A stretch of 20,003 bases of DNA from the IMG/VR virus record IMGVR_UViG_3300025828_000266, positions 1 to 20,003 of that record. The stretch is one strand, 5' to 3'. Positions 1 through 12,608 of this stretch are shown piece after piece (position 1 is the first letter of the stretch; each line of letters starts with the position of its first letter). The position numbers and the translations under genes are program-made. Source of the DNA: a virus. The notes beneath the pieces are model-generated. The model made no database searches. It saw nothing but the letters and a program-made list of their open reading frames with translations, and was not told the DNA's origin.

Positions 1-24
1 CTAAATAATAATCCCGGGGCCTTG

Positions 25-290
25 CCCCTAGTAATAAGAATTAGGGAATATAACCTAAATTATATTATAGGCTATATTTTAGGGTATTTACCCGGGGGAA
101 TATGTCATTAATAGGAGGGTACTAGATATAGATAAATATATATAAATATACTAGATATAGTATACTAGGGCCACGGGGGGTGGTACATATGCTTGTATGC
201 CAGTAAGAAAATAAATTAGGAAAATGGGGGTGTAAACTAGATTGGTCGGCTATGCCCCGGTAATCCCCCCAATAACCCCCCTAGTAATAA
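25..290. repeat. 13-bp direct repeat CCCCTAGTAATAA
   Basis: CCCCTAGTAATAA is found at 25-37 and 278-290. An inverted pair, TACCCGGGGG at 89-98 and CCCCCGGGTA at 337-346, lies across the same region. Together with the CCCCTA/TAGGG motifs these give the region a repeat-based architecture; the role is unknown. Confidence 0.55.
120..160. repeat. 12-bp direct repeat TACTAGATATAG
   Basis: TACTAGATATAG is present at 120-131 and again at 149-160, a 29-bp period, followed by a related TATACTAG at 161-168. The spacing is close to three helical turns, which would put both copies on the same face of the DNA. Function is unknown; a protein-binding pair is possible. Confidence 0.6.
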
Positions 291-301
291 TTGGTCGGCT
301 A
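241..301. repeat. 12-bp direct repeat ATTGGTCGGCTA
   Basis: ATTGGTCGGCTA occurs at 241-252 and 290-301, a 49-bp period. Each copy is followed by a run of C (CCCC in both). The intervening DNA carries a run of six C. No function can be assigned from the sequence. Confidence 0.65.
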
Positions 302-417
302 ACCCCTAATATACCCCCTAGGGTATAGGTGTAAAGCCCCCGGGTAGGGGTAACTTATATATTATACACCCAAATCCAAATCTGTCAAGAAAAAAATAAT
401 TTTTTTATAGAAAAAGG

Positions 418-445
418 TTGACAACTAGTAAATACGGGATATAAT
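418..445 (+). promoter_or_regulatory. Perfect-consensus sigma70-type promoter
   Basis: TTGACA (418-423) and TATAAT (440-445) are both exact consensus hexamers separated by 16 bases. A second TATAAT overlaps at 445-450. Directly upstream lies an A/T tract (about 390-416) that looks like an UP element. Transcription would start near 452 and read into the small terminase gene at 540. It is the only strong promoter I saw in the window, so it may drive the whole structural operon using host RNA polymerase. Confidence 0.75.
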
Positions 446-458
446 ATAATATATTGTA

Positions 459-499
459 ATTAAATAATTGCACACAATTCCACAAACCTATTATTTAAT
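459..499 (+). promoter_or_regulatory. Inverted repeat in the 5' leader
   Basis: ATTAAATAAT at 459-468 is repeated in inverted form (ATTATTTAAT) at 490-499, with 21 bases between. It lies just downstream of the predicted transcription start. An alternative small hairpin, AATTG/CAATT (466-470 and 475-479), overlaps it. It could be an operator or a leader hairpin; the sequence alone does not decide. Confidence 0.4.
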
Positions 500-524
500 A
501 AAAGAGAATTAGTGGTGCATACAA

Positions 525-536
525 AACCCGCGGGTT
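525..536. promoter_or_regulatory. 12-bp GC-rich palindrome AACCCGCGGGTT
   Basis: A perfect palindrome sits three bases before the ATG of the first small terminase gene, exactly where a Shine-Dalgarno sequence should be; none is present. It could be an operator, a cohesive-end cutting site or a hairpin masking translation start. All three are inferences. Confidence 0.5.
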
Positions 537-539
537 ATC

Positions 540-959
540 ATGATATCAAACTTACTAGCACAATCAAAGAAACAAAAGAAAGAGCTTACTGAAAAGCAAT
601 CTATCTTCATTGATGAATTAATGCGTAATGGCGGTAGCATATCTCAAGCTATAAAAGTAGCGGGATATAGCGAAGGCTCACGCAAATGGTTAGTAGAATC
701 AGTACGGGATGAGATAATAGACCGTACCAAACAAGAACTAGCCCTTAATGGCCCAAAAGCCGCTAGTAGGTTAGTTTCTACCCTAGATGAAGATGGAACA
801 ACCCCTAAAGGGGATTTAAGGCTCAAAGCCGCAGAAAGTTTATTAAACAGAATTGGTATTGGCTCTAATGAAGCCATAGACCATAATGTACAAGTTATGC
901 ATGGTGTTGTATTACTACCAAGCAAAAAAGAAGAGACAATAGAACATAGCGATGAATAA
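540..959 (+). CDS. terS: Terminase small subunit, module 1
   Basis: This 139-residue protein is probably the DNA-recognition subunit of the packaging motor. It would bind the packaging site on concatemeric phage DNA and hand it to the large subunit. An N-terminal helix-turn-helix-like stretch starts at ELTEKQ (about residue 15) and includes VAGYS (about 41-45), typical of small terminases. The middle carries LDEDG and an arginine-rich helix. The C-terminal motif QVMHGVVLLP matches QVAHGIFILP of the second copy at 13442, as do LTE-Q, LDEDG-TP and AA--LL-R-G. It lies directly upstream of other packaging genes. The ATG at 540 has no Shine-Dalgarno; no alternative in-frame start is better. Function rests on position and the paralogue, so it is likely but not proven. 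Confidence 0.82.
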   Translation: MISNLLAQSKKQKKELTEKQSIFIDELMRNGGSISQAIKVAGYSEGSRKWLVESVRDEIIDRTKQELALNGPKAASRLVSTLDEDGTTPKGDLRLKAAESLLNRIGIGSNEAIDHNVQVMHGVVLLPSKKEETIEHSDE

Positions 960-1337: not shown

Positions 1338-2987
1338 GTGAATGATATACCTCTACCAAAGCCGAAAAGGCAGTATAACTACAGTTCTGCTCAAAAAGCA
1401 AAGATAGCGGCTCAGAAAAAGATTAGAGAAGCTAAGAAAACAGCAGAAAGAAAGAAAAAACAGCTAAAAACCTACCGAGATAAGGCTAGAAATGCTGAAA
1501 ATAACCTAAAAAAGATAGAAGGTACACTTACAGGTAAGAAACCTGCTGTTTTAACAGAAGAAGACATACAAAAAGCACCAAAGGCTGTTCGTGAAGAGAT
1601 AGATAATAGCAATGTTATCTTTAAACCAAACGAAGGGCCACAAACAGATTTCCTAGCCGCACCAGAACGTGATGTTTTATACGGTGGAGCGGCAGGCGGA
1701 GGTAAATCATACGCCCTACTAGTTGATTTACTACGTTATGCGGATATACCAGACCATCGTGCATTACTCCTCAGACGTACTTTAAATGAATTAACAGAGT
1801 TAATTGATAAAAGTAAACAAATATATCCAAAAGCATTTCCGGGGGCAGTATTCAAAGAAGCAAAATCAATGTGGGTGTTTCCTAGTGGAGCAACTGCATG
1901 GTTTTCTTACTTGGATAAAGACACAGACGTTACACGATATCAAGGACAATCCTTTACATGGATTGGTGTTGACGAAATAACACACTACCCAACCCCATAT
2001 GTATGGGAATATTTACGTTCACGTCTAAGAACAACCAACCCAAGCATAAAAGCGTACATGCGATGTACAGCTAACCCCGGTGGTGTTGGAGGATGGTGGG
2101 TTAAGAAAATGTATATTGACCCTGCTCCTCCCGATATTGCCTTTGCGGCACAGGACATGGAAACGAAAGAGGTTTATCGTTGGCCAACAGAACATGAAAA
2201 ATCTGGTCAACCATTATTCTTCCGTAAATTTATACCGGCTCGTTTAACAGATAACCCCTATCTAATGAATGATGGCCAGTATGAGGCAATGCTACGTTCA
2301 TTACCAGAAATAGAACGTAAAAGATTACTAGAAGGTGATTGGGATGTTGCAGAAGGAGCGGCGTTTCCAGAATTTGAAAGGTCACTACATGTTGTTAAAC
2401 CTTTTGAGCTATCACCGTCATGGCAACGCATACGAGCGGCTGACTATGGATTTACTTCACCCTCTTGTGTATTGTGGGGCGCTGTTGATTGGGATGGTAA
2501 TCTAATAATATACAGAGAGTTATACGGAAAACAATATACTGGTGAAGCTCTAGCCCGTCTAATTGTACAATTTGAACGTGATGATAAACAACCATCAACA
2601 TTTGTATTAGATGCAAGCTGTTGGAATAGAACAGGGCACGGCCTTAGTATAGCTGAAACAATGATACGCAACGGTGTAAGGTGGACACCTTCCGATAGAA
2701 ACCGGCTTGCCGGTAAAATGGAAATACATCGCCGATTATCACTTGATAATGGCAAACCATCTATTTACATATTTGAAACGTGTACTAATTTAATTAGAAC
2801 GCTTGGTAACATACCAACATCTAAAACAAATCCAGAAGATGTAGATACAAAAGCTGAAGACCATGCTTATGATGCATTGCGTTATATGGTAATGACAAGG
2901 CAATCAAGTAGACCTACAGTTCCGGATATACTACAACAAATAAAGCGCGAAGCTTACCAACCGGAAGATAATGTTTTCGGTTATTAA
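1338..2987 (+). CDS. terL: Terminase large subunit (packaging ATPase and nuclease), module 1
   Basis: A 549-residue packaging motor that uses ATP to pump DNA through the portal and cuts the concatemer. The first 70 residues are basic and helical. The ATPase has a Walker A motif GGAAGGGKS at 116-124 (Lys123) and Walker B WIGVDE at 208-213 (Asp212, catalytic Glu213). The RNase H-like nuclease has its expected acids in AADYGF (Asp369), VLDAS (Asp425) and EDHAYDALRY (Asp508, Asp512). All motifs are intact. The start is a GTG: the N-terminus NDIPLPKPK aligns with DNIPPPKPK of the paralogue at 14039, fixing this choice. The paralogue is about half identical by eye. Family assignment is secure. Confidence 0.97.
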   Translation: MNDIPLPKPKRQYNYSSAQKAKIAAQKKIREAKKTAERKKKQLKTYRDKARNAENNLKKIEGTLTGKKPAVLTEEDIQKAPKAVREEIDNSNVIFKPNEGPQTDFLAAPERDVLYGGAAGGGKSYALLVDLLRYADIPDHRALLLRRTLNELTELIDKSKQIYPKAFPGAVFKEAKSMWVFPSGATAWFSYLDKDTDVTRYQGQSFTWIGVDEITHYPTPYVWEYLRSRLRTTNPSIKAYMRCTANPGGVGGWWVKKMYIDPAPPDIAFAAQDMETKEVYRWPTEHEKSGQPLFFRKFIPARLTDNPYLMNDGQYEAMLRSLPEIERKRLLEGDWDVAEGAAFPEFERSLHVVKPFELSPSWQRIRAADYGFTSPSCVLWGAVDWDGNLIIYRELYGKQYTGEALARLIVQFERDDKQPSTFVLDASCWNRTGHGLSIAETMIRNGVRWTPSDRNRLAGKMEIHRRLSLDNGKPSIYIFETCTNLIRTLGNIPTSKTNPEDVDTKAEDHAYDALRYMVMTRQSSRPTVPDILQQIKREAYQPEDNVFGY

Positions 2988-12198: not shown

Positions 12199-12251
12199 TG
12201 GCTTTAGCTAAATTACAAAAAATTTTACAAACAGGAGGGACATATAGATAA
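12198..12251 (+). CDS. Very short coupled ORF (17 codons)
   Basis: MALAKLQKILQTGGTYR starts at the ATG overlapping the previous stop (TAATG) and itself ends in a TAATG with the next gene. The sequence ACAGGAGGG inside it supplies the Shine-Dalgarno of the next gene. It may be a genuine microprotein or simply a translational bridge that keeps ribosomes on the message. No evidence beyond the junctions. Confidence 0.35.
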   Translation: MALAKLQKILQTGGTYR

Positions 12252-12391
12252 TGCCTTTTAAAAAATATTCACCAAAACAAAAAAAACTAGCAAGAGTTGC
12301 ATCACCAAGAGATAAAATAACTGGTGCGGACTTTAAAGTATTAAAAAGAAAACCAAAAAATGGCACTAGCAAAAAGTCAAAGAAGTCTTAA
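12251..12391 (+). CDS. Small basic protein, MPFKKYSPKQKKLARVA family
   Basis: A 46-residue lysine-rich protein beginning MPFKKYSPKQKKLARVASPR, followed by DKITGADFKVLK and a Lys/Ser tail. I recall this opening from small open reading frames of many marine phages; no function is known. AGGAGGG at 12234-12240 is a good ribosome site. It overlaps the next gene by 32 bases. Confidence 0.68.
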   Translation: MPFKKYSPKQKKLARVASPRDKITGADFKVLKRKPKNGTSKKSKKS

Positions 12392-12608
12392 AGCTTGGGG
12401 TAAACAAAAGTGGCGAACGAAGTCTGGAAAGAAGTCAAGCGATACTGGAGAAAGATATCTACCCGAAAAAGCAATCAAGTCACTGACATCTGCAGAGTAT
12501 GCGGCAACGACAAAAGCAAAGCGAAAAGGAACAAAAAAGGGCAAACAATTTGTGAAGCAACCGAAAAAGATTGCAAAGAAAGTAAAACAATATAGGAGTT
12601 TTTCATAA
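12360..12608 (+). CDS. Small basic protein with WGKQKWRTKSGKKS motif
   Basis: An 82-residue protein with LKAWGKQKWRTKSGKKS, then TGERYLPEKAIKSL, then SAEYAATTKAKRKGTKKGKQ. This is a recognisable small family of unknown function in phages and some bacteria (I believe DUF5872, not checked). Nearly one third of residues are Lys or Arg. It starts inside the preceding gene and ends in a TAATG junction. An alternative frame inside it (12410-12595) is a shadow. Confidence 0.75.
   Translation: MALAKSQRSLKAWGKQKWRTKSGKKSSDTGERYLPEKAIKSLTSAEYAATTKAKRKGTKKGKQFVKQPKKIAKKVKQYRSFS

Follow-up and report, generated by a model that had tools for sequence, protein, structure and literature searches.

A Candidate Packaging-Terminus Site Ahead of the Terminase Genes of an HMO-2011-Like Podovirus

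The window considered here, the whole 20,003-b stretch of an IMG/VR record, opens with a region rich in G/C runs, for which a first-pass annotation had suggested a packaging function. We propose that a single bipartite element on the leftward strand (202-160) is the candidate packaging-initiation or terminus site of an HMO-2011-like podovirus, with a probability of roughly three in four, based on comparison with relatives and on analogy with two phages whose genome ends are mapped. The earlier reading of a packaging site is most likely right in kind, with a different recognized element and a sharper position.

The Phage and Its Terminase Genes

The large terminase gene of the window (terL, 1338-2987, plus strand; phrog_979, 1.4e-65) encodes a protein approximately 52% identical to those of the Pelagibacter phage HTVC115P, of HMO-2011 and of the Roseobacter CRP phages, and by this resemblance the window phage is part of the HMO-2011-like podovirus assemblage. 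The small terminase gene terS precedes it (540-959, plus strand), matching phrog_51 at 6.6e-7, with Terminase_2 below its cut-off. A second terminase module is encoded farther to the right, and the lack of a G/C-run region there had been raised as a puzzle. However, identity of the window to contig G001 is 97-98% as far as 12,230, after which the sequence represents another phage type, the switch lying near a gene that is 84.5% identical in both types (junction 12230-12604). Beyond the junction the genes are HTVC033P-like (TerL2 74% at the nucleotide level), and TerS2 is 55% identical to HTVC033P TerS versus 37% to TerS1. Thirteen of 13 relatives possess one TerL each. By these comparisons the contig is a chimera or a recombinant, its second module coming from another phage type whose packaging site would lie outside the part present, and the puzzle therefore dissolves.

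The G/C-Run Region

What had been noted about the composition of this region was borne out by recounting. Positions 1-417 contain four CCCCTA and five TAGGG motifs, in both orientations (starts at 25, 42, 80, 166, 278, 303, 315, 319, and 345), and a further CCCCTA is found within terS, as CCCCTAAAGGGG (802-813). Three direct repeats, CCCCTAGTAATAA (13 nt, 25-37 and 278-290), TACTAGATATAG (12 nt, 120-131 and 149-160) and ATTGGTCGGCTA (12 nt, plus strand, 241-252 and 290-301, in the variable segment), are present as described, as is an inverted 10-nt pair (89-98 and 337-346). The motif excess is modest for the composition, since dinucleotide shuffles of 1-417 average 4.6 motifs and at least nine occur in 16 of 1000; for the looser pattern CCCTA|TAGGG, 115 of 1000 shuffles contain at least nine. 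The count alone is thus a weak signal. The real anomaly is the density of G/C runs, through which the region does stand out within the window: 12 runs of at least four in 417 b, versus 35 across the remaining 19,586 b, with the four richest 400-b windows all inside 1-700. In a near-identical 51-kb contig (L004), the G/C-run gap extends approximately 200 b leftward past the window edge, so the window starts inside a non-coding gap of approximately 730 b. A blastn search with window positions 1-540 against phages matched nothing.

As to the motifs having been taken for the recognized sites, most relatives have zero to three copies of CCCCTA/TAGGGG within the 560 b that precede terS, yet the bipartite core is retained. 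Conservation in relatives, proposed at the outset as a check, is therefore seen for the core and not for the motifs. Of 54 leaders, 22 have phage-specific direct repeats between the leftward promoter and the core that are significant against shuffled sequence (p<=0.05), as at 241-301 in the window. These were considered as TerS sites and rejected: contigs L014 and L021 encode TerS proteins that are 99% identical, while their variable segments are only 51% identical, so the repeats do not simply track TerS.

A Conserved Bipartite Core

Read on the leftward strand, the element common to the relatives consists of an A/T tract, a TTGCATA-like half, 19-22 nt closing with a C or G run, and GTGGCCCT. 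The window version, TGGCATA-N20-GTGGCCCTAGTATAC (160-202, minus strand), was aligned with 12 other cores; it is flanked by an A/T-rich stretch, TTCCTAATTTATTTTCTTACT (203-225, minus strand), where relatives have an A-tract, and beyond it lies an A/T element, ATATTTATATATATTTAT (128-155), similar to one found in relatives. The spacing from TTGCATA to GTGGCCC is fixed at 26-29 nt in 61 aligned cores, and it is kept although the GC content of the gap spans 29-52% among relatives. For a two-block weight matrix we used 61 distinct metagenomic cores, leaving out the window and its close group as well as contigs L079 and L080, whose cores are unlike the others. Scanning both strands of the window with this matrix gives a single clear match, at 202 (minus strand, 13.9 bits), the next independent one scoring -3.4. 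One contig outside the training set (L130) scores 43.3, and in a scan of viral contigs for TTGCATA-N20-GTGGCCC, 79 of the 120 matches listed exceed 40 bits, the other 41 staying under 23. There is one core match per record in 16 of 16 records, the uniqueness per genome that a headful pac site should have.

The matrix does not place the eye-aligned cores of HTVC115P and HMO-2011 first, and ranks that of HTVC033P first only weakly. A matrix from C-type cores only gives 18.5 bits for the cobavirus ICBM2 and 19.3 for CRP-5, with the CRP-4 site ranked 386, while an all-type 40-mer matrix ranks ICBM2 second and CRP-5 fourth; our conclusions rest on the original two-block matrix. The G/C block at the center of the core is G-rich, C-rich or palindromic among close relatives (L120 and L128; L125, L141, and L148). 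An A-run/CCC (as read leftward) resembling a rightward intrinsic terminator lies at a nearly constant distance beyond the core (median 303 nt, 125 loci).

The pac sites of the SPP1/P22 type lie near terS and near the packaging-initiation cut, and the earlier proposal had invoked multiple short sites adjoining terS. The single-copy core gives this logic no support. It is found beside terS in the window, in phiM6 and in the HTVC phages (HTVC115P, HTVC033P, and HTVC103P), and 3-8 kb away, in unchanged orientation, in nine isolates, whose core-like elements were located by eye or by loose pattern, not by the matrix: HMO-2011, CRP-1, -9, -13, -345, -603 and MW202701, in which it occupies the gap heading the late genes, and CRP-3 and CRP-212, in which it occupies a large gap among same-strand genes.

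Divergent Promoters

Two perfect (12/12) sigma-70 promoters, each TTGACA-16-TATAAT, form a conserved divergent pair between the core and terS: P_L at 361-388 on the minus strand and P_R at 418-445 on the plus strand, in front of terS. In simulated 20-kb sequences, back-to-back pairs of at least 10/12 each appear in 3 of 100, and a 12/12 pair in none of 100. The pair is recognized in 112 of 164 sequences, a count in which the window and L001, its own copy, both figure, with some of the others ending before the region, and it is kept where small genes part it from terS, as well as in relatives of approximately 50% GC. It could be placed in seven of eight long metagenomic contigs mapped; in these, the late genes starting at terS are oriented rightward, and a further rightward operon of small genes separates the core from the replication genes, which run leftward. 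P_R would drive the terminase/virion operon and P_L a leftward, mostly non-coding transcript; in L004 no minus-strand ORF of at least 50 aa follows P_L. Intrinsic terminators occur on the leftward strand in 16 of 61 distinct leaders and on the opposite strand in one of the 61, and 13 of the 16 lie 56-113 nt after the -10 of P_L, so P_L is probably in use, its transcript often being short.

Two contigs carry small basic ORFs in this otherwise non-coding variable segment (L117, 2139-2327, and L137, 2680-2814, both minus strand), sharing RNPFYKELA-LGHKVLKNKK-YSRK; an ArfA-like identity was considered for them and dropped, Pfam giving no support. A motif, TTACGATAATTA, recurs in both orientations in L004 (4386 and 4912) and in upstream gaps of L007-L043, and is perhaps a phage promoter or operator.

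The Core at Mapped Genome Ends

Two phages with mapped ends link the core to packaging. In the Sinorhizobium phage phiM6 (MH700630), whose terminase is approximately 52% identical to that of the window, the matrix scores 135,702 positions and ranks 93, on the minus strand, highest (16.2 vs. 3.1 bits), placing the core 93 bp from position 1, which is the pac cut mapped by PhageTerm, with the phage classed as headful (PMC6256558). As in the window, a 12/12 promoter, a small gene and an HMO-2011-like TerL gene follow directly downstream; unlike in the window, the leftward consensus promoter is missing, and the product of the small gene is only 26% like the window TerS. In ICBM2, the top match genome-wide is at 40750 (13.8 vs. 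-1.1 bits), 1 bp from the annotated start of the direct terminal repeat (DTR) at 40749; this likeness was first spotted by eye and then scored with the matrix. Cobavirus DTRs have been seen in PacBio reads, and their G+C-rich 5' end is described as conserved in the parts of that report considered here (PMC6775973). The DTR 5' ends of ICBM1 and ICBM2 resemble the window core in possessing TTG(T/C)A..ATA, approximately 18 nt and CCCCC, and are oriented alike with respect to the early and late genes. They differ in having no GTGGCCC half and in a TerL of another PHROG family (for ICBM2, phrog_38 vs. the window-type phrog_979, with no BLASTP similarity), and with TerL families that differ, the two sites may or may not share descent. 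The cut also falls on opposite sides of the core, immediately preceding it in ICBM2 and lying approximately 44 nt beyond it in phiM6. In T7, Skadi and VpV262, whose ends are known, the matrix gives no match at the ends. The proposal of a packaging site thus most likely stands as to its kind, with the core lying at or near the mapped ends of phiM6 and ICBM2, and is not supported as to its motif and the weight given to closeness to terS.

We suggest that the terminase of the window phage, TerS with TerL, would recognize the bipartite core on replicated concatemers and cut within approximately 100 bp of it. The predicted cut interval is 109-204: at 203/202 by analogy with ICBM2, or at approximately 109 by analogy with phiM6. 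Packaging would then probably proceed rightward through terS in a headful mode, as in phiM6.

Alternative Readings

The core may instead mark the start of a short DTR of the T7/cobavirus kind, a variant that shares in the probability of the packaging reading and that we regard as possible, if clearly the less favored mode. The cut would be made just before the TTGCATA half, with the repeat extending leftward, and this would agree with the repeat start of ICBM2, within 1 nt of the top matrix match, with the common layout and orientation, and with the conserved rightward terminator beyond the core, which could bound such a repeat. On the other hand, phiM6 was read as headful by PhageTerm (PMC6256558), and end repeats are marked in none of 29 related viral records. 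As phiM6 has the related terminase, a headful mode appears likelier than a DTR for the window phage. Among the viral-contig matches listed, no contig starts at the core, which is neutral for phages of either mode. It does bear on a cos site with cohesive ends, to which the arrangement upstream of terS, a variable G/C center between two halves that are conserved, could otherwise be likened: assemblies run continuously through the core rather than ending at it, only L153 breaking inside and none of the 79 high-scoring matches beginning at TTGCATA, among the matches listed. We have rejected this reading as very improbable.

A replication origin or initiator-binding region, with packaging determined elsewhere or nearby, would suit the frequent position of the core in the gap between divergent early and late genes, and the A/T element, the repeats and the consensus promoters would fit there too. 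We consider it unlikely, and less likely than a packaging site, as the core lies at mapped packaging ends in two phages. The comparison of two isolates also speaks to this: CRP-1, which we take to have HMO-2011-type replication genes, and CRP-13 have cores that are 89% alike over 37 nt, and the CRP-13 core has the GTGGCCC half, which cobaviruses lack. This is despite the replication genes of CRP-13 being cobavirus-like and its packaging genes HMO-2011-like, according to the portion of the isolate description considered here (PMC8528129). The comparison favors linkage of the core with packaging, though late-gene control would travel in the same way. It is also quite improbable that the core serves as template for a structured non-coding RNA running leftward from P_L. 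The 12/12 promoter is conserved in position, and terminators are enriched on that strand, but the 13 terminators at 56-113 nt precede the core, so that transcription from P_L would scarcely reach it in the phages concerned; the G/C block at its center flips sign among close relatives, with the invariant CCC having no constant partner, and some members carry small ORFs in this place instead. The terminators and the flipping center lead us to set this reading aside for the core. Rfam gives no hits at the gathering score in the window or in nine other loci, and an evalue search of L004 gives sub-threshold matches only.

Implications

Judged by its recurrence in metagenomic contigs and isolates, the candidate packaging core is a signal found throughout a phage group that is very abundant in the ocean. 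A survey describes HMO-2011-type phages as dominant there and widespread, and its main text uses none of the terms circular, permuted, terminal and intergenic (PMC9038755). Among the literature matches listed on HMO-2011 packaging and on pelagiphage termini or non-coding regions, there is no account of the element. A recognizable core would allow placing termini in hundreds of metagenomic genomes and telling real genome starts apart from arbitrary ones, and it offers a cis site for TerS tests. The likeness to ICBM2 opens a way to test how pac and DTR signals are related. A single packaging-terminus signal common to the HMO-2011/phiM6-type TerL, read as headful, and to the T7-type TerL of cobaviruses, acting at a DTR, is a tentative idea to which we give somewhat less than even credence; if true, it would mean that the DNA signal is older than the packaging strategy, or moves independently of it.
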